Assembly (NCBI RefSeq): GCF_000403395.2
Contig: NZ_KE159668.1
Coordinates: 62,001-126,000 of the forward strand
Direction: 5' to 3'
Length of the DNA stretch: 64,000 nucleotides
Origin: Anaerotruncus sp. G3(2012)
GTDB lineage: Bacteria; Bacillota; Clostridia; Oscillospirales; Ruminococcaceae
The first letter of the stretch is position 1, and the number at the start of each line of letters is the position of its first letter. The position numbers and the translations under genes were made by a program. The notes beneath the pieces were generated by a model. That model was not told where the DNA came from and did no database searches. It saw nothing but the letters and a program-made list of their open reading frames with translations. Shown here piece after piece: positions 8,535-39,076 of this stretch.

Positions 8535-9926
8535 ATGATTAAAGAGAACCAACGCCTGCTCAACTGGCTCTTGAAGCTCGCGGATGTGTCGATCGCCATA
8601 CTGGTGATGCCGGTCGCCTACTATATCCGGTTTGACCTGCTTTTTGGCAGGCCGGGGATCGGGCCGGGCTACTATATGCAGCTGCTGGTGGTGATCCTGC
8701 CGCTCTACCTGCTGCTCTACTACCAGTTCAACCTCTACGACCCGTTCCGCTACAAGTCGCTGCTGAGCGAGGTGCGGCGGGTCGTGCAGGCAAATGCGGT
8801 GGGGCTTGTCCTCATCTTTGTGCTCAACTTTTTTCTGCGCGAGGTAGATGTCTCCCGCCTGACCATCGTGATCTTTTCAGCGCTGAATACCACCCTGACT
8901 TCCCTGATCCGGGTGAGCCTGCGCAAGACGCTGCGTGTGCTCCGGGAAAAGGGGTATAACATCAAGCATCTGCTGCTGGTGGGATGGAACGAATCGACAG
9001 GGGATTTTTTCGACCGGATCACATCCAACAAACAGTTTGGATACCAGATCGAGGGCTACCTGAGCGACAAGGTGCGCCAGGTGGGGAACCGCAGCATTCT
9101 ATATAAGGGGACGATCTCGCATCTTGCCGGCCTGCTCGACCAGGAGGAGATCGACGAGGTCATCATTTCGCTTGACTACGATGAATTCCCGCTGCTGGCT
9201 GAGATCATAGAGGTCTGCGAAAACGAAGGGGTCAAATCCAACCTTCTGCCGTTTTATACAAAATATCTTCCGTCCAAACCCTACATAGACGATATTGACG
9301 GGCTTCCGCTGATTAACATCCGGCATATCCCGCTGGACAATTTCCTGTACAGCTTTCTCAAGCGCGCGTTTGATATTGTTGCCTCTGCGCTGGGGCTGGT
9401 GGTGCTTTCGCCGCTGCTGCTGGTGACAGCGGTCGGCGTCCGGCTGACCTCCCCCGGCCCGGTGATTTATAAGCAGCTGCGGGTGGGCAGGAATAAGAAG
9501 GAATTTATGATGTACAAGTTCCGGTCGATGCGGGTGGACGGCAACGCGGACATGACTACCTGGGGCGGACGCGCCGACAGCCGCCGGACCGCGTTCGGGA
9601 CCTTCATCCGCAAATGCAGCATTGACGAGCTGCCGCAGCTTTTCAATGTGCTCAAAGGGGATATGAGCCTGGTTGGGCCGCGGCCCGAGCGGGAATATTT
9701 TGTACAGAAGTTCCGCGAGGAAGTTCCTCTTTATATGCTCAAGCATCTGGTACGGCCGGGGATCACCGGCTGGGCACAGGTGAACGGATGGCGGGGGGAC
9801 ACCTCGATCGTTGAGCGGATCAAGTGCGACATCTACTATATTGAGAACTGGTCGTTCCTGCTCGACCTGAAAATCCTGATTATGACCGTATTCAAAGGCA
9901 TCATCAATCCGGAAGAGGAACTATAA
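8535..9926 (+). CDS. undecaprenyl-phosphate sugar phosphotransferase (WbaP/EpsL type)
   Basis: 463 residues: four N-terminal membrane helices, a CoA-binding-like central domain (HLLLVGWNE), then the catalytic domain starting near KRAFDIVASALGLVVLSPLL. Catalytic signatures are YKFRSMR, RKCSIDELPQLFNVLKGDMSLVGPRPE (key residues DELPQ and GPRPE) and RPGITGWAQVNG. These enzymes transfer a sugar-1-phosphate onto undecaprenyl phosphate to start repeat-unit synthesis. Start ATG 8535 follows AGGAGG by 8 bp and the EpsG stop by 10 bp. Confidence 0.93.
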   Translation: MIKENQRLLNWLLKLADVSIAILVMPVAYYIRFDLLFGRPGIGPGYYMQLLVVILPLYLLLYYQFNLYDPFRYKSLLSEVRRVVQANAVGLVLIFVLNFFLREVDVSRLTIVIFSALNTTLTSLIRVSLRKTLRVLREKGYNIKHLLLVGWNESTGDFFDRITSNKQFGYQIEGYLSDKVRQVGNRSILYKGTISHLAGLLDQEEIDEVIISLDYDEFPLLAEIIEVCENEGVKSNLLPFYTKYLPSKPYIDDIDGLPLINIRHIPLDNFLYSFLKRAFDIVASALGLVVLSPLLLVTAVGVRLTSPGPVIYKQLRVGRNKKEFMMYKFRSMRVDGNADMTTWGGRADSRRTAFGTFIRKCSIDELPQLFNVLKGDMSLVGPRPEREYFVQKFREEVPLYMLKHLVRPGITGWAQVNGWRGDTSIVERIKCDIYYIENWSFLLDLKILIMTVFKGIINPEEEL

Positions 9927-9946
9927 TGTATAGAGGGAAAGCCTGA

Positions 9947-9975
9947 TTGCGCGGTTTCCCAATATGTGTTATAAT
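9947..9975 (+). promoter_or_regulatory. extended -10 promoter of the coiled-coil gene
   Basis: TTGCGC (9947-9952), 17 bp, TGT-TATAAT (9970-9975) with an extended -10. GGGAAAGCC (9935-9943) and GGTTTCCC (9953-9960) form a dyad around the -35, possibly an operator or a hairpin ending the previous operon. Confidence 0.6.
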
Positions 9976-10037
9976 CAAAAGTACTTTATAATATGGGATA
10001 AGCGATGAACGGAAGTGTCGAGAAAGGATGGGTAAAG

Positions 10038-10577
10038 ATGGACGAAGTGAGGCTGCTCGAAGCAATCGGCAAGATGATGGACGAGAAGCTGGAAAAAATG
10101 TTTGATGAGAGGCTTGAGGAAAAGCTGGAAAAAGTTCTGGATAAGAAGCTTGATGAAAAGCTGGACGAAAAACTCGGAAAAACTCTGGATGAAAAGCTCG
10201 GAAAAACTCTGGATGAAAAGCTCGGAAAAACTCTGGATGAAAAGCTCGGAAAAACTCTGGATGAAAAGCTGGACCAAAAGTTTGACGAAAAGCTGGCGCC
10301 GGTTCATGAACGGCTGGGGCGGCTGGAAAACGATGTCTCCGGGCTGAAAAAGGACATGGCGGAGGTCAAAGCGGACATCAAGGACCTGAAATACAGGGTG
10401 ATTGTCCTGGAGGACAAGGTTGACGTAATGAGAAAAGACATCGACGGGATGAAAGCCGACATCGACGAGCTGAAATATCAGGGTGAAGTTACCCGGTCGG
10501 GCGTGAACACGCTGTTGAGCTGGGCGGAAAATGTGGAATCGGTGGTAAAGGTGCCGTTGATGGGCGCGGCCCGCTGA
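10038..10577 (+). CDS. repetitive coiled-coil protein
   Basis: 179 residues from ATG 10038, preceded by AAAGGATGG; the upstream ATG 10005 lacks a ribosome site. The first ~90 residues are a highly charged coil of 8-residue repeats LDEKLGKT, encoded by near-identical 24-bp units. The second half repeats DMAEVKADIKDLKYRV- and DIDGMKADIDELKYQ-like heptads. No membrane segment or signal peptide. Function unknown; such proteins in Firmicutes are generally uncharacterised. Own promoter just upstream; the protease follows 15 bp later. Confidence 0.75.
   Translation: MDEVRLLEAIGKMMDEKLEKMFDERLEEKLEKVLDKKLDEKLDEKLGKTLDEKLGKTLDEKLGKTLDEKLGKTLDEKLDQKFDEKLAPVHERLGRLENDVSGLKKDMAEVKADIKDLKYRVIVLEDKVDVMRKDIDGMKADIDELKYQGEVTRSGVNTLLSWAENVESVVKVPLMGAAR
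10161..10256 (+). repeat. four tandem 24-bp units inside the coiled-coil gene
   Basis: Units of CTGGATGAAAAGCTCGGAAA plus AACT begin at 10161, 10185, 10209 and 10233; units 2-4 are identical. The period is a multiple of three, so gain or loss of units keeps the frame and changes coil length by 8 residues. Confidence 0.9.
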
Positions 10578-10592
10578 TTTGTGGGAGGATTT

Positions 10593-11294
10593 ATGAAAAA
10601 AAACAATGTAATCGAGATGCCGCTGAAAAAATCGGTACTCTGGCGGGACATTGTGCTGATGTCCTTATACCCGCTTTTGAGTGCATGGGTGGTACAGAAA
10701 CTGGGTGGGATGACCACCGACACAACTCTGCAAAATTTTATTATGATGGCGGCCAACTGGGTCTGGTATTTTGTAACCTGGCTGATGGTGACCAAAATCG
10801 AACGGAGAAGCATGGCCCCATACAAAATTAAGGAATGGGCGCTGCTCTGGCAGCTGCTTCTGGGAATTGGGCTAGGGCTTCTCATTTTTTTCATTACCTT
10901 TCTTTTACCTGCCCTAACGCAGGGTAGAGTGATTATGGTGAACCCATATCCACCGAGATCGACACGCGGCCTGATGCTGTTCACCTTATTTAATCAGTTC
11001 CTGTTTGTCGGCCCCACAGAGGAATTTGTCTACCGCGGCTATCTGCTTGACCGGTGCCGTGAAGCGACAGGCTCCAAGTGGGGAGCGGTTCTGATTATGA
11101 CCTGTTTGTTTGTCCTTCCGCATATTGTGACCAGCGGGCTTGGGGTTTATCTGCTTTCTCCGCTGGTTCTCTCTCTGCTGACCGCGGTTGTGCGGGTAAA
11201 GCTGAAACTGGGTTCCATCTTTGCGCTTGGCGTCGCACATGCCCTTGCGAACAGCCTGCTTACCCTCTGTTCTATCTATCTGATGATGGCATAA
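10593..11294 (+). CDS. CPBP/Abi family intramembrane metalloprotease
   Basis: 233 residues from ATG 10593 with GGGAGG upstream. Six or more hydrophobic segments. The CPBP motifs are visible: TEEFVYRGYLL (EExxxR, ~residue 148), LPHIVTS and AHALANS carrying the metal-binding His. Family members are CAAX-prenyl-protease-like glutamic/metal proteases, some linked to bacteriocin self-immunity or membrane protein processing. It follows the coiled-coil gene directly. No substrate is evident nearby. Confidence 0.85.
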   Translation: MKKNNVIEMPLKKSVLWRDIVLMSLYPLLSAWVVQKLGGMTTDTTLQNFIMMAANWVWYFVTWLMVTKIERRSMAPYKIKEWALLWQLLLGIGLGLLIFFITFLLPALTQGRVIMVNPYPPRSTRGLMLFTLFNQFLFVGPTEEFVYRGYLLDRCREATGSKWGAVLIMTCLFVLPHIVTSGLGVYLLSPLVLSLLTAVVRVKLKLGSIFALGVAHALANSLLTLCSIYLMMA

Positions 11295-13170: not shown

Positions 13171-13262
13171 GCAAGGGGGCTTTTTCACTTGCAAAAAGCC
13201 CCCTCTTGCCGCATCGCGGCAATTCACCCGAAAAAAGCGCTTCACAGGATAAAGCATTTCGC
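13171..13262 (+). repeat. intergenic repeat family, copy 1 (modules A and B)
   Basis: Hairpin AGGGGGCTTTTT/AAAAAGCCCCCT with loop CACTTGC (13174-13204), then CGGCAATTCACCCGAAAAA and GCGCTTCACAGGATAA. The same module order occurs at 38713-38800, and in inverted orientation at 34220-34320. Confidence 0.85.
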
Positions 13263-13287
13263 TCATTGCGATGAGCGACCAAAGGCC

Positions 13288-13815
13288 CTGCCTTTGGAAA
13301 CCGCAATTTTTTGAAAAAAATTGAGTAAAACTTTAGTTTTGGGAAAAAGTGGCGCCCAGCCCGGAAGGGAGGGGCCTACGGGGAGGGGTCACCGACCCCT
13401 CGCCCGTAAGGCAAACTGAGGGGGCGTCGCGCGAAGCGCGCTTCGGGCTGAAAGCCCGAGAAGACCCCCGAAGAAGGGCGCTTGCGTCCCGGAAGTTTGG
13501 GCTGGAACCCAAACTTCCGTTGCCTCACTGCCTTTGGAAACCGCGATTTTTTGGAAAAAATTGAGTAAAACTTTAATTTTGGAAAAAAGCGGCACCCAGC
13601 CCGGAAGGGAGGGGCCTACGGGGAGGGGCCACCGACCCCTCGCCCGTAAGGCAAACTGAGGGGGCGTCGCGCGAAGCGCGCTTCGGGCTGAAAGCCCGAG
13701 AAGACCCCCGAAGAAGGGCGCTTGCGCCCCGGAAGTTTGGGCTGGAACCCAAACTTCCGTTGCCTCACTGCCTTTGGAAACCGCGATTTTTTGAAAAAAA
13801 TTGAGTAAAACTTTT
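13288..13815 (+). repeat. two 240-bp tandem units plus a partial third, highly structured
   Basis: CTGCCTTTGGAAACCGC begins at 13288, 13528 and 13768, giving an exact 240-bp period; units differ at a few bases. Each unit has CCTACGGG pairing with CCCGTAAGG around a GGGGTC/GACCCC hairpin, then GCGCG/CGCGC, TCGGGCT/AGCCCGA inside an outer GGGGG/CCCCC stem, and GGAAGTTTGGG/CCCAAACTTCC. The AAATTGAGTAAAACTTT module is at 13318, 13558 and 13798. No credible ORF. Confidence 0.9.
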
Positions 13816-19891: not shown

Positions 19892-20719
19892 TTATTTTGA
19901 CTGTTTTTTCGCCTGCAAGTAATCGTTCAGCTCGGCATTGGGAATGTCGGTGATAAACATGTGGCCGGGCGAGTGGGTAATCACGATCGGGGGCTTTGCT
20001 GCTTCGATCGCTGCCTGCGGCGTGACGCCACACGGCCAGAACACCGGAATCTCCCCCTCGCGGATTTCGACTGCTTCGCCGTAGTCGGGTTTCATGATAT
20101 CTGCGACCCCAACCACCGATGGGTCCCCCATATGCACCGGCGCACCGTGTACGTTGGGGAATTTGACCGTGATGTCATAGGCAAGGCGGGCGTTTTCCGG
20201 GGTCATAGGGCGCATGCTGCAAACCATGGGGCCTTCAAACGGTCCGGCTTTGACCGTCTGGATATTGGTCTTGTACATGGGGACGTTGCGTCCGGTCGCG
20301 ATATGCCGGATTTCGATGCCTGCTTTCATCAGCGCTTCCTCGAAGGAGAAGCTGCACCCGATCAGGAACCCGACATACCCCTCTTTCCAGAACGCGGAGG
20401 CGTCGTTGACCTTTTCGCTGAACTCCCCGTTCCGGTAAATGAAATATTCGGGAATGTCGGTTACGATGTTTCCTCCCTCGCCCATAGCATGGGTTTCCGG
20501 AGTCCCCTCGATAATCTCAAGAACAGGACAGGGGAACGGGTTCTTTTCGGCGTATTCTTTGAAATCTGCTGCATATTCGGGCGGCAGGATCACGAGGTTG
20601 GCCTGTGCGTATCCGCGGCACATGCCCGCAGTGGGGAAGGTGATCTCACCCGAACGGATGCGCTGGCGCACCTCGGCGGGGGACATGTCAACATAGGGGG
20701 TGATGTCAAAACGCGGCAT
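19892..20719 (-). CDS. DUF1445 / YcsI-like hydro-lyase, putative D-glutamate cyclase
   Basis: 275 residues from ATG 20719 (AAAGGAG 7 bp upstream). It matches the DUF1445 family: GMCRGYAQANLVILP, FLIGCSFSFEEAL, NVPMYKTNI, CSMRPM and FWPCGVTPQAA, ending with SPGHMFITD. Members sit beside pxp genes in many bacteria (ycsI in B. subtilis), and the mammalian relative converts D-glutamate to 5-oxo-D-proline. Here it is the last gene of the pxp operon, so D-glutamate/5-oxoproline interconversion is the likely role (inference). Confidence 0.88.
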   Translation of the reverse strand: MPRFDITPYVDMSPAEVRQRIRSGEITFPTAGMCRGYAQANLVILPPEYAADFKEYAEKNPFPCPVLEIIEGTPETHAMGEGGNIVTDIPEYFIYRNGEFSEKVNDASAFWKEGYVGFLIGCSFSFEEALMKAGIEIRHIATGRNVPMYKTNIQTVKAGPFEGPMVCSMRPMTPENARLAYDITVKFPNVHGAPVHMGDPSVVGVADIMKPDYGEAVEIREGEIPVFWPCGVTPQAAIEAAKPPIVITHSPGHMFITDIPNAELNDYLQAKKQSK

Positions 20720-20764
20720 GGTTATGCTCCTTTCGGTCACTGGTTTTGGGAGAGTGATCCCCGT

Positions 20765-21781
20765 TTACCGGGGGAGGCAGGCATATTTTTGAGGGCGCGG
20801 CGGCTGTTTTGCGGGTCCGGCAGACGGGTCATAGGTGTGGGAGAGCGCTTCACGCAGTGCACGCAGGTAGGCTTTGCGGTCGAGATAGAGGTCCTGCGCT
20901 TCGGTAATCCCAACCTGTACAAACCGGATTTTGTCACCCGCCTTGATCTGTGCGGCCTTGCTGAAATCCGCTGAAATGACCGTCGCAATCTTGGTGTAGC
21001 CGCCCACTGTCTGCCGGTCGGCAACCATAATAATCGGTTTGCCCTCGGATGGGACCTGGATCGCGCCGAACGAGATACCGTCCGAAATGATGTTGCCGTC
21101 CTTGACATGCTCGATCACCGGGCCGTCCAGACGGCAGCCCATCCGGTCGGACTGGACCGTTACCGCGTAGGTTTCCCCAAGGAACGTCTTGATGCCGGCT
21201 TCGGTGAATGCATCATCCTGCGGGCCAAGCACGACGCGCAGGGTAACGTCGGTTTTCGTAAACGTCTCGGCATCTGCGACCGCGCGTTTTTCCATGTTCG
21301 GGAGCTGGGCAGTGGGTGCGCGGAAGGCGATGATATCCTCTTTATCCAGCTTGCGCCCCTCCAAGCCGCCGATCTTCGCCTTGAGGTAGGTCGAGCGGCT
21401 GCCCATGACCTGTGGAATCTCCAGCCCGCCGGCAAATGCGATATAGGCGCGGCAGCCTGAACGGGGAGCCGCAAACGAGAGCACCTGCCCCTTCTGGACT
21501 GCAACCGCGCGGTTCATCGGGAAGGATTTCCCGTCGAGCTGGGGGGTGAGGTCGCCGCCGGTGACTGCGATGCAGTTGGCCTCCTGAAACTCAATGCGCG
21601 GACCGAGCATGGTGACTTCGAGCACCGCCTCGTTATCCTCGTTGCCGACGAGGATATTTGCGATCGCAGCGGCCTGCGGATCCATCGCTCCCGAGACCGG
21701 CACGCCAAACTGCTGGTAACCGATACGCCCGTTATCCTGTACAGTGGTCAGCATCCCGCCGTTTATAATACGAATGCTCAT
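20765..21781 (-). CDS. pxpC: 5-oxoprolinase subunit C
   Basis: 338 residues from ATG 21781, overlapping the pxpB stop (ATGA) and preceded by AAGGAGG. It belongs to the biotin-dependent carboxyltransferase-like/KipA family: TTVQDNGRIGYQQFGVPVSGAMD (key parts TVQD, GVPVSGAMD), CIAVTGGDLTP, GCRAYIAFAGG and VQSDRMGCRLDGP. With PxpA and PxpB it forms the ATP-dependent prokaryotic 5-oxoprolinase that yields glutamate. Confidence 0.93.
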   Translation of the reverse strand: MSIRIINGGMLTTVQDNGRIGYQQFGVPVSGAMDPQAAAIANILVGNEDNEAVLEVTMLGPRIEFQEANCIAVTGGDLTPQLDGKSFPMNRAVAVQKGQVLSFAAPRSGCRAYIAFAGGLEIPQVMGSRSTYLKAKIGGLEGRKLDKEDIIAFRAPTAQLPNMEKRAVADAETFTKTDVTLRVVLGPQDDAFTEAGIKTFLGETYAVTVQSDRMGCRLDGPVIEHVKDGNIISDGISFGAIQVPSEGKPIIMVADRQTVGGYTKIATVISADFSKAAQIKAGDKIRFVQVGITEAQDLYLDRKAYLRALREALSHTYDPSAGPAKQPPRPQKYACLPR

Positions 21782-22515
21782 TTCTGCTCCTCCTTTTTGG
21801 GATAGCGGCGGCACTCGTAGGCGCCCGCCTCAACCTGCTTCTGAATCTGCTCGAACTCCTTGCGGTCGATCGGGCGGAATTTGATGTACTGTCCCGCTTC
21901 GGGCAGGATAGGGACTGCGCGGTTGGGGTCGTACATCTTCACAGGGGTCAGGCCGATGAGCTGCCAGCCGCCGGGGGAGTCGATCGGATAAACACCGGTC
22001 TGCTCGCCCGCGATACCGACCGAACCTCCCGGGATTTTCACCCGCGGGCTTTGCAGGCGCGGGGTGGCGATCTCCTTGCTCATGCCGCCCAGATAGGTGA
22101 AGCCGGGGGTAAACCCGAGCATGTAGATGAGATATTCGGTTGAGGAGTGGATTTTGATGACCTCTTCGGGGGTCTTGTTGTTGTGCTTGGCGACAAATTC
22201 GAGGTCCGGGCCTTCCTCGCCGCCATAGAGCACCGGGATTTCGAGCACGTCGCTCGGGGGGATTTCGATCTTGTCCAGATCGCCCATCAGCCCCTGCATC
22301 TGCTCGACCAGCTTTTCATAGCGGATGACCGCAGGGTCGTAATGGACCATCAGCGCGCGGTAGCTCGGCACCGTTTCGACGATGCCCTTGATCCCGCTGC
22401 CCTGGAGCGCGATGTTGAACGCGCGGATTTTGGCGTTGATGGCGGTGCTGATCTCATTGCCGAACTCCACCGAAACCGAGGTGTCGCCGGTCAACAGAAA
22501 TTTTACAGAATCCAT
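21778..22515 (-). CDS. pxpB: 5-oxoprolinase subunit B
   Basis: About 245 residues from ATG 22515, with GGAGG 11 bp upstream; an ATG at 22533 lacks a ribosome site. KipI/allophanate hydrolase subunit 1 fold: LTGDTSVSVEFG, EIPVLYGGEEGPDLEFVA (key YGGEEGPDL), LGFTPGFTYLGG and GSVGIAGEQTGVYPIDSPGGW (key GEQTGVYP and SPGGW). It overlaps pxpC by 4 bp. Part of the PxpABC enzyme; B. subtilis KipI also inhibits a sporulation kinase, so a regulatory side-role cannot be excluded. Confidence 0.93.
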   Translation of the reverse strand: MDSVKFLLTGDTSVSVEFGNEISTAINAKIRAFNIALQGSGIKGIVETVPSYRALMVHYDPAVIRYEKLVEQMQGLMGDLDKIEIPPSDVLEIPVLYGGEEGPDLEFVAKHNNKTPEEVIKIHSSTEYLIYMLGFTPGFTYLGGMSKEIATPRLQSPRVKIPGGSVGIAGEQTGVYPIDSPGGWQLIGLTPVKMYDPNRAVPILPEAGQYIKFRPIDRKEFEQIQKQVEAGAYECRRYPKKEEQK

Positions 22516-22604
22516 AGGTTGGCAGTCCTCCATTCTGAATGGGTTCTCCCATATGCGGACTGTGGCGCGCGGATGCGCGCCACAGCAGCAGGGATCACCG
22601 GGTC

Positions 22605-23846
22605 TTATTTAAACAGGTTGAGCAGGTTCGGGACCGACTTCAGCCCGACAAAACCGGTCAGGCAGACAACGACCACGCCCGCGACGATCAGGAAGGTCGG
22701 GTGCTTGTAGCTTTCGCCGACAATCTTCTTGTTGCGGCTGGCAAGCAGCATGACGCCGAGGGTGATCGGCAGGATCAGGCCGTTGAGCGAGCCTGCGACG
22801 ATCAGCAGCTTGGCAGCGCCGCCGAGGATCGCCATAATCAGGGTCGAGAAAGCGATAAAGCCGATAACAAACCACTTCTCGTTCTGCGCAATGAACGGAT
22901 GCAGGGTCTTGAGGAACGAAACCGAAGTGTAAGCTGCGCCGATGACCGAGGTGATCGCGGCGGAGAGCAGCGCGATGCCGAACAGGCGGTAGCCGATCTC
23001 ACCGGCCGCCAGACGGAACGCCTCGGCCGCAGGGTTGGACGCACCCGCGACCTGTGCCGCGGCAGCAGCACCACCCGCGGTGCAGACGCCCAGAACCGCG
23101 AGGAAGAGCAGGATGCGGACGGTGCCCGAAACACCGATACCGGTCAGCACGCTCTTGCGGATATGCTGGATGTTTTCCGGGCCGCTGATGCCCGCGTCGA
23201 TCAGGCGGTGGGAGCCGGAGAATGCGATATAACCGCCGCACGAGCCGCCCAGCAGGGTAATCATCGGGAAGAGCAGGGTGGACGGGTTATCCGGCATAAA
23301 GACTTTGGCGGCAACCTCGCCGACCGGGGGCTTGGAAGCAACCGCGACGATCGCGATCGAAACCAGGATGATTCCGGCGAGCACCTTGGTGACCTTATCC
23401 ATCACGCCGGTGGCGTTTTTGGAAAGGAAGATGCAGATTGCGATAACGCCCGCAATGATACAGCCAACCTTCTCGGGGATACCGAGCAGGGCATTGAAGC
23501 CGAGCGCCGCGCCGCCGACATTTCCGATGTTGAATGCGAGGCCGCCGAGCGCAACCATGAAGGCCACGACAAAGCCGAGGCCGGGAAGCACCTTATTGGC
23601 GATGTCCTGCCCGCGCATCCCCGAAACACCGATGATCGACCAGATGTTGGCCTGGGCGATGATGTCGAGGATGATGGTACAGAGGATAACCGTCGCGAAC
23701 GACGATAGGTACTGCGAGGTAAAGGTGGAAGTCTGTGTAAGGAAGCCCGGCCCGATCGCCGAAGTCGCCATCAGGAACGCTGCGCCGAACAGCGCACCGC
23801 CGCTCTTTTTCACCGGAGCCGCATTGGTAGTGTTCTCTTTGCTCAT
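22605..23846 (-). CDS. NRAMP-fold transporter of the pxp operon (YcsG-like)
   Basis: 413 residues, about eleven membrane segments. The overall pattern is NRAMP, but the metal-binding DPGN of TM1 reads IGPGFLTQ and the TM6 MPHN region reads GGSCGGYIAFSGSH. Those changes argue against a divalent metal. The gene lies between pxpA and pxpB, the order of ycsF-ycsG in B. subtilis, so import of 5-oxoproline or a related acid is more likely (inference). The start follows AGGAGGGT. Confidence 0.85.
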   Translation of the reverse strand: MSKENTTNAAPVKKSGGALFGAAFLMATSAIGPGFLTQTSTFTSQYLSSFATVILCTIILDIIAQANIWSIIGVSGMRGQDIANKVLPGLGFVVAFMVALGGLAFNIGNVGGAALGFNALLGIPEKVGCIIAGVIAICIFLSKNATGVMDKVTKVLAGIILVSIAIVAVASKPPVGEVAAKVFMPDNPSTLLFPMITLLGGSCGGYIAFSGSHRLIDAGISGPENIQHIRKSVLTGIGVSGTVRILLFLAVLGVCTAGGAAAAAQVAGASNPAAEAFRLAAGEIGYRLFGIALLSAAITSVIGAAYTSVSFLKTLHPFIAQNEKWFVIGFIAFSTLIMAILGGAAKLLIVAGSLNGLILPITLGVMLLASRNKKIVGESYKHPTFLIVAGVVVVCLTGFVGLKSVPNLLNLFK

Positions 23847-23886: not shown

Positions 23887-24654
23887 TCAGACGATCGCGT
23901 CAAGGTTGCAGATCTCTACGCCGTTTTTCTGAAGCTCTGTGCGGATATTGCTGACAAATTCGAGCGCGGACGGATTGTCCCCATGCACGCAGATCGAATC
24001 CGCCTTGATTTCGATCTCCTTGCCGGTGATGCTCTCGACCTTACCCTGGGTAACCATGCCGATTACCCGCTTGATTGCGAGGTCTTTGTCGTGGATGACA
24101 GCGCCTTCCTGACGTCTGGGGACGAGGTTGCCGTCCTCGAGGTAGGCGCGGTCCGCGAATACTTCGCTGGCAACCTTCAGGCCAACCTCGCGGCCCGCTT
24201 CGAGCATCTTGCTGTTGGCCAGCCCGAGCAGGATGATGCTGCTGTCCACCTCTGCAACCGCTTCGCAGATCGCGAGCGCGAGCTTCATGTCAACCGCAGC
24301 CATGTTGTAGAGTGCGCCGTGGGGCTTGACATGCTGGAGGCGGACGTCGGCCGATTTGGTGAAGGCGAGCAGTGCGCCGAGCTGGTATTTCACATCTGCT
24401 TTTGCTTCGGCGGGGGAAGCTGCCAGGTTGCGGCGTCCGAAACCAACCAGGTCCGGGAACCCGGGATGCGCGCCGATAGCAGTGCCCGCAGCTTTTGCCA
24501 GTTCGACCGTCTTGCCCATGACCAGCGGGTCGCCAGCGTGGAAGCCGCATGCCACGTTTGCCGACGACACGTACTTGAGGATTTCGGAGTCCATACCAAT
24601 GGTATAGGCGCCAAAGCTCTCACCAAGGTCGCTGTTGAGGTCTACTTTGTACAT
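23887..24654 (-). CDS. pxpA: 5-oxoprolinase subunit A (LamB/YcsF family)
   Basis: 255 residues. The signature [12 protein letters not shown] opens the protein, with [40 protein letters not shown] and [10 protein letters not shown] following, all typical of PxpA. First gene of the operon, downstream of the sigma-54 promoter. AAGGAGGG lies 9 bp before the ATG. PxpA with PxpBC cleaves 5-oxoproline using ATP. Confidence 0.95.
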
Positions 24655-24706
24655 AAAAAACCCTCCTTAAAAAATTAAGAATTTGTGTTTGTTGGTTAAA
24701 TTAAAC

Positions 24707-24722
24707 AGCAAATTGAGTGCCA
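24707..24722 (-). promoter_or_regulatory. sigma-54 promoter of the pxp operon
   Basis: On the minus strand TGGCAC (24722-24717), 5 bp, TTGCT (24711-24707): the -24/-12 consensus with correct spacing. It lies about 40 bp before the pxpA ribosome site, and an NtrC-type activator is encoded just upstream. Confidence 0.9.
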
Positions 24723-24841
24723 GTTTTCGGGAGCAAAAGCAGAAATATCCGGAAACCCCCGCCAGAAGCGGCGTATAAAATTTTTCTATACCATTTTCCG
24801 GCGCAGGAAATACAAGGATTTGCTGCAAAAAAAGCAAAAAG

Positions 24842-24899
24842 ATGTGCAGAATCGCACATGTTGGCTGTGCGGTCATGCACACCTGCGCATCTCTGCACC
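24842..24899. promoter_or_regulatory. three upstream activator sites, TGTGC-N6-GCACA
   Basis: Site 1: ATGTGC-N6-GCACAT (24842-24859), perfect. Site 2: TGTGC-N6-GCACA (24866-24881), perfect. Site 3: TGCGC-N6-GCACC (24884-24899), degenerate. Centres are 23 and 18 bp apart and lie about 130-175 bp upstream of the sigma-54 promoter, the usual range for enhancers of NtrC-type activators. Confidence 0.8.
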
Positions 24900-25047
24900 A
24901 ACTGGGAATCCCTATCCAGAGGGATAGATGCAAAAAGGCGGGCAGTCCAACGGATTTGCATAGTTTTGAAAAAATCCTGCAAATGGGACGGCCTGTCCGA
25001 AATCCCTGTCCAAGCGCTTTGAAATAGTCCTGACCTGCCGGATACCG

Positions 25048-26394
25048 TCAGGCTTCCAGGCGGCGCTTGAGGGTGAACCGGGTACAGCCGAGAAGCTGGG
25101 CAGCTTTTGACTGGTTGCCCCCGCAGAGCGCGAGCGCCTTGTCGATATAGGTGCGTTCAAACCGGTCGATCTCCGCTTGCAGGTCGACCGGGCCTTCCGA
25201 GAGGTCTTTGAGCGGAAATGCGCCCGGGGGGCTGATCTGCGGCCCGCCTTCCCGCAGGATCGAACCGGTGAGGGTGCTCCCTTCACAGAAGAGGACACAC
25301 CGCTCCATCACGTTGCGCAGTTCCCGGACATTGCCTTTCCAGTCGTGGCGGTTCATCTGCTCCATCAAGGCGGGGTCGATCGAGGTGATATTTCTGTTGA
25401 ATTTTCGATTAAAATACTCTAAGTAATATTCGCTCAGCACCCGGATGTCCTCCCGGCGCTCCCGCAGCGGCGGAATCTGCACCTGCATCACATCCAGCCG
25501 GTAGAACAGGTCCTGACGGAACCGGCCGTTCACAATCTCCTTTTCAAGGTCGCGGTTGGTAGCGGCGATCACCCGCACATTGACTTCGATGTCGGTCAGG
25601 CCCCCCACCCGCTTGAAGCTGCGGTCCTCCAGAAAGGTCAGCAGCTTGGCCTGCATGGTCAGCGGCATCTCGCCGATCTCATCCAGAAAGATGGTACCGC
25701 CGTTCGCCAGCTCGAACAGGCCCTTTTTGGTTTTGAGCGCGCCGGTGAATGCGCCCTTCTCATACCCGAACAGCTCGGCTTCGAGCAGCGTTTCGGGGAT
25801 AGCGCTGCAGTTGATCTTGACCAGCGGATCATCCCTGCGGCCGCTCGAGTAGTGCACCATGTTGACGACCACCTCTTTGCCGGTGCCGGTCTCCCCGCGG
25901 ATCAGCAGATCCACATTATCGTTTTTGGCGAGCAGCAGGACATGCTTGCGGATCAGCTGGATGGCGGGGCTGGCGCCGACCAGCTCCCGCGGCTTGCCGC
26001 CCTTGAGCAGTTCAAGGCTGCGGCGGTTTTTGAGCTGGACCAGGCTGCGGCGGATCTGAAGGTCGATCGCGTCGATGTCAAACGGCTTCTGCACATAGTC
26101 GAACGCGCCTTTCTTGATCGCAGCCACCGCCTGTGAAACGGTGCCGTAGGCGGTCATCATCACAATCTGGATGTCCTCGTCGATCCGCTTGATTGGCTCG
26201 ATATAGTCGATCCCGAGATCATCCCCCAGCCGGTTGTCAAGCAGGACGAAGTCGGGCCGGAACCGTTCGGCAGCGGCAAGTCCGTCCCGGATGTTGTCCG
26301 ATGTTTCCACCAGATAGCCGAGGTCGGAAAGCCCGTTTTCGAGCGAAACCCGGATCAGAAATTCGTCGTCGATCACAAGTACCTTATATTTCAT
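25048..26394 (-). CDS. NtrC-family sigma-54 response regulator
   Basis: 448 residues in three parts: receiver domain (acidic DD at 9-10, phospho-acceptor Asp 53 in VLLDNRL, Lys in VQKPFD), AAA+ domain with Walker A GETGTGKE, the sigma-54 contact loop GAFTGA and LDEIGE, and a Fis-type HTH at the end (NQSKAAQLLGCTRFTLKRRL). The GAFTGA loop shows it can activate sigma-54 RNA polymerase. It overlaps the kinase gene by 4 bp. The adjacent sigma-54 promoter and palindromes make the pxp operon its evident target. Confidence 0.95.
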   Translation of the reverse strand: MKYKVLVIDDEFLIRVSLENGLSDLGYLVETSDNIRDGLAAAERFRPDFVLLDNRLGDDLGIDYIEPIKRIDEDIQIVMMTAYGTVSQAVAAIKKGAFDYVQKPFDIDAIDLQIRRSLVQLKNRRSLELLKGGKPRELVGASPAIQLIRKHVLLLAKNDNVDLLIRGETGTGKEVVVNMVHYSSGRRDDPLVKINCSAIPETLLEAELFGYEKGAFTGALKTKKGLFELANGGTIFLDEIGEMPLTMQAKLLTFLEDRSFKRVGGLTDIEVNVRVIAATNRDLEKEIVNGRFRQDLFYRLDVMQVQIPPLRERREDIRVLSEYYLEYFNRKFNRNITSIDPALMEQMNRHDWKGNVRELRNVMERCVLFCEGSTLTGSILREGGPQISPPGAFPLKDLSEGPVDLQAEIDRFERTYIDKALALCGGNQSKAAQLLGCTRFTLKRRLEA

Positions 26395-28034
26395 GATGTC
26401 CCTCCCGTGTGGAAGATGATGGTGATGCGGGTGCCCTGCCCGGCAGCGGTATCGATCGAGAAAGAGCCGTTGTTCTGGGCGAGCAGGCGGGAGACGATCG
26501 AAAGCCCCAGCCCGCCGCCGGTACGCCCCTCCTCCAGCGAAGCATGTACGCCCCGCAGGGTGGCTTCGTCCATCCCATCCCCGGTGTCCGAGACAGTGAG
26601 GACGGTCGAATCCCCTTCCCTGTGGGCTTCCAGCGCGATTTCCCCACCGCTGTGGAGCGATTTGATGCTGTTGTTGATGAGATTGACAAGCACCTGCCGG
26701 ATTTCCGATTCGTCGGCATAGAGCGGCGGGTCCCCCTGCACCCCGGCGGTGATCCGGATGCGGTTGTTCTGGGCGATCTTGGCATAAAGGAGCAGCAGCT
26801 CGTCGAACAGGGCGGGCAGGTTGATGAGTACCTTCTGGCTCTCCCGTTTGCGGGAGAGGTGGAGCAGGTCCTCGATCAGCCGGTTGACCCGGTCGACCTC
26901 CCCGAGGATGCTGGTACTGAGCATCCGGTCGCGGTCGCTCTCGAGCCGCCGGCTGATGACCTGTATTCCGGCCCGGATGCCGGCCAGCGGGTTGCGGATC
27001 TCATGCGCAAGCATCGCGGCGAGCTGGCCGGTATAGGCCAGCTTTTCCCCTTCAGTCAGCTTTTCCTCCATCCGTTTTTTGTAGGTGATCTCGTCGAGGG
27101 TGCAGAGGGTGCCGCCCTCCCCTTCGTCGGCGGTACGCAGCCGCCAGACCCCGATCTCATAGTCAACCGCCCGGCCGTCGGCATTTTGCAGGCGGATCGG
27201 GTCGTGCAGAACCTTGGGGCTGACGATGATCCCATCTACAATCTGCCGCAGGGTTTGCCCGCCGCAGAGGTATCCGGTCTGATCGAGCATCTCGACCGCC
27301 TTTGAGTTGATGCAGATGATCTCCTTTTCAGGGCTGCACGCAACGATCCCAAGCGGCAGGCTTTCCACGATCGTCTCGTTGAGCAGCTTCATCCGGAGGA
27401 TTTCGTCGGTGTGGCTTGCAATGTCTGCCAGCATCCGCTGGAATGCATTGGCAAGCTGCCCGATCTCGTCGCTGCGTTCGGCATATTCATCCACCTGCGG
27501 GGAACGCCGGACCGGCTGCTCGCCCACCGCCACCACTCTACAGGCTTCACTGAGCTGCCGGAGCGGTTCGGAGATATTATAGGAAACGAAAAGGCTCACC
27601 TGCACAATGACAATCAGCAGGGCGATGGTTGCGAGGATCATATATTTCTGTTCTTCGATCAGGCTGTTCCAGAAGGCGGTGCGGTCTAGGGCATAGCAGG
27701 CGCGCCAGCCGAACGCGGGGAGGCCGGTTTCAAGCAGGATGTCATCCGGGTCGGGCGGCTGTGTGCCGAGCAGCAGAACGCCATCCGCATCGAAGAGATA
27801 GAGGGAATCGTTCTGGATCAGGCGGTATTTCTGTAGCAGGAGCGTCCCGCTGCCGGAAAGCCCGGCGTCCAGCTCGAGGGCGCGCAGACTGGATGCGGCG
27901 GCAGCGCGTTCCCGCTCCATCTTCTGGACATAGCCGTTCCAGGTCATGATCGTGCCGAAACAGAGGATGGTCAGGATGCCGATGGTCAAAAACGGGATCA
28001 TAATTTTATGCTCGATGTTCAGCCGGAATTTCAT
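26391..28034 (-). CDS. membrane sensor histidine kinase
   Basis: 547 residues from ATG 28034 (AAAGGGGG upstream). Two membrane helices (~11-31 and ~131-152) flank a ~100-residue external domain; then HAMP, a PAS-like segment (~215-320), HisKA with the phospho-accepting His in AAMLAHEIRNPLAG (~His 344), and an ATPase domain (NLINNSIKS, GDGMD, GGGLGLSIV). It overlaps the symporter gene by 29 bp and the regulator gene by 4 bp, so all three are co-translated. It should phosphorylate the NtrC-type regulator. Confidence 0.93.
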   Translation of the reverse strand: MKFRLNIEHKIMIPFLTIGILTILCFGTIMTWNGYVQKMERERAAAASSLRALELDAGLSGSGTLLLQKYRLIQNDSLYLFDADGVLLLGTQPPDPDDILLETGLPAFGWRACYALDRTAFWNSLIEEQKYMILATIALLIVIVQVSLFVSYNISEPLRQLSEACRVVAVGEQPVRRSPQVDEYAERSDEIGQLANAFQRMLADIASHTDEILRMKLLNETIVESLPLGIVACSPEKEIICINSKAVEMLDQTGYLCGGQTLRQIVDGIIVSPKVLHDPIRLQNADGRAVDYEIGVWRLRTADEGEGGTLCTLDEITYKKRMEEKLTEGEKLAYTGQLAAMLAHEIRNPLAGIRAGIQVISRRLESDRDRMLSTSILGEVDRVNRLIEDLLHLSRKRESQKVLINLPALFDELLLLYAKIAQNNRIRITAGVQGDPPLYADESEIRQVLVNLINNSIKSLHSGGEIALEAHREGDSTVLTVSDTGDGMDEATLRGVHASLEEGRTGGGLGLSIVSRLLAQNNGSFSIDTAAGQGTRITIIFHTGGTS

Positions 28035-29490
28035 CCCCTGCCCCCTTTCCGCGCGCATACAGGCTCCCCGCCGCGAGCGCCGCTGTCGAAATCGCCACGC
28101 AGGGCATCGAGGGATGGAACCGGAGCAGGCCCGCATAATAGAGCGGGTAAAAAAGCAGAATCGAAGCAAGCCCGGAAAGCAGGCTGGCCCAGACCCCGGT
28201 ACGGTTGACCTTTTTGAAGAGCAAGGTGCCATACATTGCGGGAAAAAGGGTGGCGGCGACCACTCCCCAGATGTCGCCTCCGTACGAGATCACGCTGTCG
28301 GGCGGGTCGATCGCGAGCAGCATCGAGAGGGTGCCCCCGGCGAAGATCCCGAGCCGGCTCAACCGCAGGATGGATTCGCGGGAGAGGTTCCGCCGGCTGA
28401 CTGCGGGTGCAATATCGTAGGCGAACGAAGAGGCGATCAGAAGGAGCTGGGAGTTGGCGGTTGAGACGCATGCCCCGATGATCGAGAAGAGGAAAAAACC
28501 GCTCCAGGCGCTGTAAAGCTGGTTGTTAATCAGCCAGGTGATGATTTCGTCGGTTTTGGAGACGGTGGACAGGGTGGGGATCAGCACCCGCATCCCCAGC
28601 CCGATCTGGATCAACGAGAAATAGACAAGCGCCAGAAACCCCAGGGAACAGAGGACGGTGCGCCGGGCCGTTTTTTTGTTCTGTGCCGAGAGCATCCGGA
28701 TGGTGTACTGGGGATTTGCGGCGAGCCCCAGCCCCCAGCCGCAGAACATGCTCAGGTTCATCAGCGGGGTGAACAGCCCTTCCCCGAATGGGCGGAGCAG
28801 GCCGCCCGGTTCGGTCGGATAGGGGGTCCCAGGGTGGGCGAACCCCGAAATGCCGGCAGCGGAACGGTGGATTTCGAGCACGCCTCCCGCCCGCGAGGTG
28901 ATGGTGACAAACAGCACAGCGATGCTGATGGCGAGCAGGATCAGGTTAAAGACATCGCTGCGGGTGACCGACCGGTAACCGCCAAAGGTGGTGTAAAGGA
29001 TGAAGAGATAGACCAGCAGGATCGAGATGCCGTAGGGGATGTCGAAGAGGGTGGAAGCGACCACCCCGAACCCCTTGATCTGGATGACCAGATAAAAGAT
29101 GTACACCGCGATAAAGACTGCGGCATAGGCCACCTGGAGCCCCTTGGAGCCAAACCGCTTATAAAAAAGCTCGGGGATGGTCAAAATTTCGTTGTCGTAG
29201 AGACGGTCGCTGATCCCGACGAGGAAAAATGCGCCGATAAACCAGGGGAATACCGAATAGAGCATGACGTTGTAGCCGCTCTCGTAGACGCTTCCGGTCA
29301 GGCTCAGGATGCTGGCAGCGGAAACCCAGGTCCCGGAGAAGGTCGCCATGCACCGCCAGAGGCTGAGGTGGCGTCCGCCGAGAAAAAACTGTCCGACCGT
29401 GTTCCCGTCCCGCAGGCTGCTTTTGCCGATCAGGAGCAGGACGGTCGAATAGGCGCAGAAATAGAGCAGGTAAAGCAGGGTCTTATTCAT
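28006..29490 (-). CDS. sodium:solute symporter (SSS/SLC5 family)
   Basis: 494 residues with about thirteen hydrophobic segments. N-terminal GQFFLGGRHLSLWRCMATFSGTWVSAAS (key GGRHLS and GTWVSAAS) is the SSS signature region carrying Na+ ligands; the later ISIIGACVSTANSQLLLIAS matches the TM8 site (key STANSQL). Its end overlaps the histidine kinase start by 29 bp. In CbrA-type sensors an SLC5 transporter is fused to a kinase; here the two are separate but coupled genes. The substrate could be 5-oxoproline or a precursor (inference). Confidence 0.9.
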   Translation of the reverse strand: MNKTLLYLLYFCAYSTVLLLIGKSSLRDGNTVGQFFLGGRHLSLWRCMATFSGTWVSAASILSLTGSVYESGYNVMLYSVFPWFIGAFFLVGISDRLYDNEILTIPELFYKRFGSKGLQVAYAAVFIAVYIFYLVIQIKGFGVVASTLFDIPYGISILLVYLFILYTTFGGYRSVTRSDVFNLILLAISIAVLFVTITSRAGGVLEIHRSAAGISGFAHPGTPYPTEPGGLLRPFGEGLFTPLMNLSMFCGWGLGLAANPQYTIRMLSAQNKKTARRTVLCSLGFLALVYFSLIQIGLGMRVLIPTLSTVSKTDEIITWLINNQLYSAWSGFFLFSIIGACVSTANSQLLLIASSFAYDIAPAVSRRNLSRESILRLSRLGIFAGGTLSMLLAIDPPDSVISYGGDIWGVVAATLFPAMYGTLLFKKVNRTGVWASLLSGLASILLFYPLYYAGLLRFHPSMPCVAISTAALAAGSLYARGKGAGDEIPAEHRA

Positions 29491-33204: not shown

Positions 33205-34146
33205 TTGGAAAAGCTGATACGCAGGATCATCGAGCGGAACAACCCGACCGTCGTGGGACTGGACCCCACACTGGACTATATCCCCGCACAGGTAAAGGCA
33301 GAAGCATTTGCGGAATATGGAAAAACGCTGCGCGGCGCCGCACACGCCTATCTCACCTATAATAAAGCGATCATCGACGCGATCTGCGATGTGGTCCCGG
33401 CAGTCAAGCCCCAGTGTGCCTATTATGAGCTGCTCGGATGGGAAGGGGTGAAGTGCCTCGCCGAGACGATCTCGTATGCACAGGAAAAAGGGATGTATGT
33501 CATCACCGACGGCAAGCGAAACGACATCGGTTCGACCATGCAGGCGTACGCCGCCGCCCACCTCGGGGAAATCGAGATTGAGGGGGAGAGGTGTGTCCCG
33601 TTCGGCGGGGATGCGCTGACGGTCAATGGGTATCTCGGCACCGATGGGATTAAACCGCTGCTGGAGGTGATAGGGGACAACCCAGACAAGGGGATTTTTG
33701 TGCTGGTCAAGACCTCCAATCCTTCCTCGGGTGAGCTTCAGGACCGGAAACTCGGAGAAAACGAGACGGTTTATGCCGCGATGGGCGATATGTGCGAGCG
33801 GTGGGGTGCAGGCAAGATCGGCCGGTACGACTATTCTAAGGTTGGAGCCGTAGTCGGCGCAACCTATCCGGCGCAGCTTTCCGAGCTGCGCGCCCGTCTG
33901 CCGCATACCTTCTTTCTGGTGCCGGGATACGGCGCACAGGGAGGCGGCGCCAAGGATGTAGCGGGCGCGTTTGACCAGAACGGCCTGGGCGGGATTGTGA
34001 ATTCCTCCCGCGCGGTGCTGACTGCTTGGAAAAAAACTGGCGGGGACGGCAGGGACTTTGCGCAGGCCGCGCGTGCGGAGGCAATCCGGATGCGGGATGA
34101 CATCACTTCGGCAATCCCGCCGATCCATTCCCCCGCGGGTATCTAA
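33205..34146 (+). CDS. pyrF: orotidine-5'-phosphate decarboxylase (subfamily 2)
   Basis: 313 residues from TTG 33205, 7 bp after GGAGG. The catalytic Lys-Asp loop is in ITDGKRNDIGSTMQAYA (~residues 95-110), and VGLDPTLDYIP near the start and VPGYGAQGGG toward the end bind the phosphate. Length and motifs fit the longer subfamily 2 enzymes. It removes CO2 from OMP to give UMP. 15 bp after pyrC. Confidence 0.95.
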   Translation: MEKLIRRIIERNNPTVVGLDPTLDYIPAQVKAEAFAEYGKTLRGAAHAYLTYNKAIIDAICDVVPAVKPQCAYYELLGWEGVKCLAETISYAQEKGMYVITDGKRNDIGSTMQAYAAAHLGEIEIEGERCVPFGGDALTVNGYLGTDGIKPLLEVIGDNPDKGIFVLVKTSNPSSGELQDRKLGENETVYAAMGDMCERWGAGKIGRYDYSKVGAVVGATYPAQLSELRARLPHTFFLVPGYGAQGGGAKDVAGAFDQNGLGGIVNSSRAVLTAWKKTGGDGRDFAQAARAEAIRMRDDITSAIPPIHSPAGI

Positions 34147-34325
34147 AGCTTTACTCAATTTTTCTCGAAAAATTGCGGGGCCGAGGGGCAGAGCCCCCGC
34201 CGCCGCGCGCACACGGCGGAACGTTTTGTCCTGGGAAGCGCTTTTTTGGGGTGAATCTGCCCTGACGGGGTCCGTCGGGGCAGATGAGGGGGCTTTTTGC
34301 AAGAGAAAAAGCCCCCTGCAAAGAT
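34144..34325 (-). repeat. intergenic repeat family, inverted copy inside the pyr operon
   Basis: Read on the minus strand it carries AGGGGGC hairpin module A (34317-34287), ATTCACCCCAAAAAAGCGCTT-like module B, GGCGGGGGCTCTGCCCCTCG (module C, as at 38890-38920) and ends with AAAAATTGAGTAAAGCTTT (module E). It lies between pyrF and carA and has no ORF. Confidence 0.85.
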
Positions 34326-38699: not shown

Positions 38700-39076
38700 C
38701 CGGGGGTGCGTCAGGGGGCTTTTTCACTTGCAAAAAGCCCCCTCTTGCCGCTTTTTGAGCGGCAATTCACCCGAAAAATGCGCTTCACAGGATAAGGCGT
38801 TCCGCGCTCATCTCGCGCTAAGAGCCCGCCTTCGGCGGGTTGCGCTCGAAACGCTTCGCTGCGGCTCGCAGTGCGGAGCGCGGCGGGGGCTCTGCCCCTC
38901 GACCCCGCCACCTTTGAAAAGGTGGACGAGACTTTTAAACAATGATCGGGTAAAAAAGCGCTCCCAATCTGCCGGGGAGGGGCCTGCGGGGAGGGGTCGC
39001 TGACCCCTAACCCGCAAGACAGCCCGCAGGGGTGTGCACAGGCCAACCGGCGCAAAAAAATTGAGTAAAACTTTTT
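38700..39076 (+). repeat. intergenic repeat family, copy 3
   Basis: Module A hairpin (38713-38743), module B, module C (GCGCGGCGGGGGCTCTGCCC, near 38877), then GGAGGGGCCTGCGGGGAGGG (module D, ~38976) and AAATTGAGTAAAACTTTTT (module E, 39058). In module D CCTGCGGG (38983-38990) pairs with CCCGCAAG (39011-39018); the A-U pair of the 13.3-kb copies is G-C here. No ORF; it may also end the carB transcript. Confidence 0.85.

Follow-up and report, generated by a model that had tools for sequence, protein, structure and literature searches.

A putative local sigma-54 two-component circuit for 5-oxoproline use in Anaerotruncus sp. G3(2012)

How is the use of 5-oxoproline switched on in Anaerotruncus sp. 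G3(2012)? The question is raised by a locus within a stretch of 64,000 nucleotides of its genome (the window), in which an operon for 5-oxoprolinase (pxp) lies beside the gene of an NtrC-type regulator. On the minus strand the order is sodium:solute symporter (SSS), histidine kinase, NtrC-type regulator, a gap of 393 bp and the pxp operon. The genes concerned are:

28006-29490, minus strand: sodium:solute symporter family protein, 494 aa (Pfam SSF)
26391-28034, minus strand: sensor histidine kinase (Pfam HAMP, HisKA, HATPase)
25048-26394, minus strand: NtrC-type response regulator, 448 aa (Pfam receiver, AAA+ and Fis-type HTH; GAFTGA)
23887-24654, minus strand: pxpA, 5-oxoprolinase subunit A, first gene of the operon (NF003814, over cut-off)
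22605-23846, minus strand: NRAMP-family transporter, in the operon position of YcsG (Pfam Nramp, over cut-off)
21778-22533, minus strand: pxpB (TIGR00370, over cut-off)
20765-21814, minus strand: pxpC (TIGR00724, over cut-off)
19892-20740, minus strand: D-glutamate cyclase / putative hydro-lyase family gene (family profiles)

All three subunits of a prokaryotic 5-oxoprolinase (PxpABC) are thus encoded in one cluster and exceed their family cut-offs; against the PxpC equivalog NF045499 the pxpC product scores 268 bits, under the cut-off of 500 bits. The transporter does not reach the cut-off of the MntH model and is likened to YcsG by operon position, not by sequence comparison with YcsG or PxpT. 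We take the D-glutamate cyclase gene as the last gene of the operon, judging its extent from gene order. Regulator and pxp operon occur together at nine loci, the window included, and a D-glutamate cyclase family gene is found at 8 of these, with no match in the stretch of the distant genome G681. The B. subtilis gene ycsI is presumably a D-Glu-cyclase-family gene as well.

The regulator has the make-up of an NtrC-type enhancer-binding protein: a receiver with the phospho-accepting Asp, an AAA+ domain with GAFTGA and a Fis-type HTH. Asp53 and AFTGA are invariant in 9 aligned regulator sequences, and GAFTGA reads NAFTGA and SAFTGA in two distant loci (G681 and G1265). Nevertheless, by the NCBIfam orthologue cut-offs the protein is not NtrC or AtoC proper, both of which it misses (AtoC 412 of 714 bits, NtrC 401.9 of 558.6). 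In the kinase two transmembrane helices, assigned by eye, flank a short extracellular domain; its likely start (MKFRLN at 28034) gives the gene a 29-bp overlap with the 3' end of that for the symporter. The sCache_2 cut-off was reached by one of four kinase sensor regions scanned, that of the G1265 locus (L121), and the window kinase gave no sCache_2 match in this region. The predicted model of its sensor domain has a mean pLDDT of 77; a fold search against the PDB yielded no match at E <= 0.001, the best one (E 5.8e-3) being a putative Clostridium symbiosum kinase domain. Because a symporter relative stands beside the kinase in all nine circuit genomes (9/9), a shared role of symporter and kinase is suggested. 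As a separate observation, the circuit's kinase gene is interrupted in G1265 by a transposase-like ORF of 401 aa, recognized by eye (L121:5295-6500).

In the gap between regulator and pxpA the following elements were located:

24722-24707, minus strand: -24/-12 (sigma-54) promoter TGGCACTCAATTTGCT, exact match
24774-24790, no strand: AT-rich block between palindromes and promoter, nearly wholly kept in the same-genus genome G299 by pairwise alignment
24843-24858, no strand: promoter-proximal palindrome TGTGC-N6-GCACA, candidate activator site 1, exact; centre 128.5 bp from the TGG of the -24 element
24866-24881, no strand: second palindrome, candidate activator site 2, exact; centre 151.5 bp from the TGG
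24884-24899, no strand: third palindrome, weak, two mismatches

Within the 64 kb the pattern TGGCACNNNNNTTGCW is matched exactly only once (minus strand, 24722-24707); this match agrees with the sigma-54 consensus (GG-N10-GC; TGGCA[C/T]-N5-TTGC[A/T]) and bears out the exact -24/-12 fit of a preliminary description of this DNA. The same description placed the box about 40 bp before pxpA; the measured distance to the ATG at 24654 is 52 nt. Transcription from a sigma-54 promoter is expected to begin some 12 nt past the box, and a start there would leave pxpA a leader of about 40 nt. The gene for sigma-54, rpoN, was found in the same genome (E 1.5e-59). Of the 8 further circuit genomes 7 have it too, with none matched in G330. 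The latter is a MAG (locus L011), yet its regulator has GAFTGA and its promoter the -24/-12 box. We also observed that in Pygmaiobacter ∼3.2 kb separate rpoN from the end of the pxp operon, the two converging (L122:5323-6699 and 9916-10743), and that rpoN of G316 lies ∼12 kb from a pxpA.

The palindromes, described beforehand as two perfect copies and one with two changes at spacings of 18–23 bp, were recovered with matching coordinates and start-to-start spacings of 23 and 18. The count of three enhancer sites holds in part: two are strong, whereas the third is weak and missing in G299, and 'three' is therefore safe only as two strong sites plus a weak one. Their centres lie 128–170 bp upstream of the -24/-12 box; the sites are paired and, as claimed, at enhancer distance, inside the range of 100–250 bp reported for most sites of clostridial sigma-54 activators (PMC6615313). 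Number alone shows no enrichment: with up to two mismatches allowed, the window has 25 such palindromes where 28 are expected. The whole genome (3.6 Mb) holds seven perfect palindromes, and only at pxpA do two of them stand close together: the unusual feature is two perfect copies 23 bp apart. The AT-rich block at 24774-24790 is possibly a DNA bend.

A comparison with G299 separates the sites from the regulator gene. In this genome the symporter–kinase–regulator block and the pxp operon are on different contigs, and the palindromes and the -24/-12 box are located with pxpA; in the 16 kb around the G299 regulator the best palindromes, five in number, have two mismatches each, and nothing there matches -24/-12. 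A rearrangement has likely separated the regulator from its target, although a binning or assembly fault is possible, since G299 is a draft of ∼160 contigs. Between the window and G299 palindrome arms and promoter are identical in 31 of 31 columns, as against 96 of 144 other columns, i.e. the rest from site 2 to the promoter with the palindrome spacers included (Fisher p = 1.5e-5). Resolved by element, the arms of sites 1 and 2 agree in 20/20 positions, the spacers in 6/12 and the promoter in 11/11 defined positions. As to the surroundings, a MATE gene lies upstream of pxpA and points away from it in G299 (L007, L107), and downstream of the operon on the same strand in the window. A dispersed repeat with a terminator-like hairpin (by eye) is present in the window at 13174-13336, 34143-34317 and 38713-38805, with copies also near the G299 loci. 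Positions 13288-13574 and 13528-13814 of the window are 97% identical and form a tandem repeat with a step of 240 bp.

The preliminary description had proposed looking for palindromes and box in related genomes and had named absence of the palindromes there as the outcome that would speak against it. The palindromes proved to be conserved: perfect copies occur at 7/7 close loci, they are degenerate at 2/2 distant ones, and the -24/-12 box is present at 9/9, that of G681 ending in TTGCG and lying farther from pxpA. The close loci, each with at least one perfect palindrome and a regulator at least 62% identical, are the window, G299, L010, L011, G434, G574 and G515; they are partly non-independent, as G299 belongs to the genus of the window and G434 and G574 are near-twins. 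Together they hold nine perfect copies, where 0.0006 are expected per shuffled 420-bp region. The spacing of the main pair is 22–24 bp (23 in the window, G299, L010 and G515, 22 in L011, 24 in G434 and G574), with the nearest perfect site 111–143 bp from the TGG of the -24 element. A weak distal site with two mismatches follows at 17–18 bp in the window, L010, G434 and G574 (offset 17 in the latter three), and there is no such third site in G299. In G434, G574 and G515 regulator and pxpA are separated by an additional ORF, with the sites next to pxpA.

In G681 and G1265, whose regulators are 48–49% identical, the degenerate palindromes also have a different spacing. Scored with a site matrix built from six close loci (all seven except the near-twin G574), these held-out loci reached best values of 17.2 (G1265) and 14.3 (G681); the 99% and 99.9% points of the background (2,998 pieces) are 10.7 and 15.1. 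Four upstream regions of the regulator-less pxp loci G009 and G316 scored at most 2.9, and the 16-kb stretches of these two loci contain no -24/-12 match. The lack of a box in G009 says little because this genome has no rpoN match; G316 has rpoN, and the absence of the regulator there is judged within the 16-kb stretch. In the Pygmaiobacter family 294 genomes were searched for the pair at fixed spacing with up to two mismatches, and 3 had it, two of the matches being pxp promoters of the present set. The third genome, G560, has two mismatches; a rough count predicts ∼1 hit by chance. The reversed pattern, run as control, also matched 1/294, so that a single match to the pair proves little. G434 and G574 were missed because their spacing is 24. 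These results fit a regulator dedicated to one operon, the commonest regulon size reported for clostridial sigma-54 activators (170 of 263; PMC6615313).

We were also interested in how widely the circuit occurs. Among the best 80 species-genome loci, the only regulator relatives with >60% identity are L010 from Pygmaiobacter massiliensis (genome G329, 73% identical) and L011 from an uncultured Firmicute (genome G330, 66%), and both carry the whole symporter–kinase–regulator–pxp block. The remaining 78 of these 80 (L012-L089, regulators 37–44% identical) were dropped as none had a pxp match, some of these loci being short or cut by contig ends. Whole-genome searches, in which a limited number of candidates per genome was scored, found the regulator in 2/11 genomes of the genus (E <= 1e-80), the same two that have pxpA (E <= 1e-60). 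In the order it was found in 1/295 genomes, the window's own (1e-100); in the class in 2/391 (own and G681, 1e-125); and in the phylum in 2/398 (own and G1265, 1e-125). The Pygmaiobacter family yielded 4/297 genomes (G329, G434, G574 and G515; 1e-130), and the same four were returned from 197 searched; the family of G681 yielded 1/6, G681 itself. By these counts, therefore, the circuit is scattered and uncommon.

Could the palindromes serve the end of a transcript rather than its start? At three loci (L010, L011 and G681) a palindrome lies within a hairpin followed by a T run behind the regulator gene (by eye), and for this reason we considered a terminator of the regulator or another upstream gene; the proximal palindrome is also the sole terminator-like match of the window, with 1 found and 0.8 expected. 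A terminator does not account for pairing at 22–24 bp, nor for arms that stay identical while spacers vary between the window and G299. As the sites keep to pxpA when the upstream gene changes (the intervening ORF of G434, G574 and G515) or when the regulator is on another contig (G299), we rejected termination as their main role and hold this explanation to be very unlikely. A different binding protein is equally hard to reconcile with the arrangement. TGTGC-N6-GCACA resembles CRP-type half sites, and a CRP/GlxR-like protein could accordingly be thought to bind the palindromes and control pxpA. A putative GlxR site, TGTGCTATAGGACACA, is reported in front of C. glutamicum pxpT (PMC13274462). 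However, the palindromes accompany an NtrC-type gene and a -24/-12 box and are absent at two regulator-less pxp loci, they lie at enhancer distance (111–170 bp upstream of -24), and 15 groups of clostridial sigma-54 activators have sites of the TGT-N10-12-ACA type (PMC6615313); control by another such regulator is in our view highly improbable.

The promoter itself might be a chance match, with pxpA driven by a sigma-A promoter of a weak kind that can escape simple scans. No sigma-70-like site was found between regulator and pxpA (24640-25100), which is weak evidence because shuffled sequences lead one to expect 0.5 anyway. More telling against chance are the presence of the -24/-12 box at 9/9 loci and the conservation of 11/11 positions in G299, which make a sigma-A promoter as the driver of pxpA exceedingly unlikely.

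Judged from sequence, 5-oxoproline use is thus very probably controlled by a local, dedicated sigma-54 two-component circuit. The histidine kinase, made next to the SSS symporter, would sense a compound that is outside the cell or being transported. The most likely candidate is 5-oxoproline or a relative of the glutamate type, a choice suggested by the pxp genes of the target operon. The kinase would then phosphorylate the NtrC-type regulator, which in its active form would bind the paired TGTGC-N6-GCACA sites 110–170 bp upstream of -24, loop over and drive sigma-54 RNA polymerase at the -24/-12 box. The predicted transcript would comprise pxpA, the transporter gene, pxpB, pxpC and the D-Glu-cyclase gene, and as a result 5-oxoproline would be taken up and opened to glutamate. 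The notion that the adjacent regulator completes a local circuit gains support from rpoN, from the domains of the regulator and from the co-occurrence of regulator and sites; counting against the circuit are the missing rpoN match in G330, the degenerate sites in G681 and G1265 and the split kinase in G1265. A more specific version remains tentative, and we would sooner doubt than accept it: an extracytoplasmic kinase and a separate, co-translated SSS symporter acting as co-sensor may detect external pyroglutamate (or a D-/L-glutamate relative) and switch on 5-oxoproline uptake and opening, in a circuit scattered over the class of the window's genome and extending to at least one genome that shares no more than the phylum with it.

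To our knowledge the nearest analogue of the symporter–kinase pairing is CbrA. In CbrA-CbrB of Pseudomonas an SSS/SLC5-type transporter is likewise linked with a kinase and with a sigma-54 regulator of the NtrC type, but there it is fused to the kinase, together with STAC and PAS domains (PMC8871633), whereas in the window symporter and kinase are two overlapping ORFs (28006-29490 and 26391-28034). The layout is also like that of the sigma-54 groups described for Clostridiales (Nie et al. 2019, PMC6615313): an NtrC/Fis-HTH activator next to the operon it controls, more than one TGT-N10-12-ACA site, mostly 100–250 bp upstream of a TTGGCAT-N5-TTGCT-type promoter, and targets in amino-acid catabolism. 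Table 1 of that paper (39 groups, 8 with targets of unknown function) lists no 5-oxoprolinase operon, and only 44 (about 10%) of its activators are two-component response regulators, the type to which the regulator of the window belongs.

Other control of pxp genes has been described. C. glutamicum has a local regulator, PxpR, of a pxpTABC operon with an NRAMP-type transporter, PxpT, a relative of YcsG that is required for growth on 5-oxoproline; PxpR differs in being a GntR-type repressor that binds 5-oxoproline directly (PMC13274462), and the neighbour of the pxp operon in the window is NtrC-type, not a GntR-type repressor. The B. subtilis pxpA operon is similar in content (pxpABC, ycsG of the NRAMP family, ycsI), with YcsG reported as a Mn2+ importer, and differs in its control by TnrA, KipR, CcpA, AhrC and MntR (PMC10448178). 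In the literature searched, taken at the level of main texts and abstracts, we found no description of sigma-54 or two-component control of pxp genes: the main text of PMC13274462 is free of 'sigma54', 'sigma-54' and 'two-component', and that of PMC12316311 has none of five related words. The published pxp regulators that we found, as far as these sources describe them, are of other types, in line with the earlier remark that pxp operons are not described as sigma-54 controlled. Each type of part is familiar; we did not find their combination described in these texts, though it may figure in a table of some other work.

Glutamate and glutamine give rise to 5-oxoproline spontaneously, and the compound is to be expected where amino acids are plentiful (PMC13274462); the bacteria for which we found its control described are few. 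A circuit of this kind is unsurprising in type. It likely assigns a binding motif and a target to a response regulator of previously unknown role, and as a candidate 5-oxoproline sensor it would extend the sigma-54 network that governs amino-acid catabolism by one more target.
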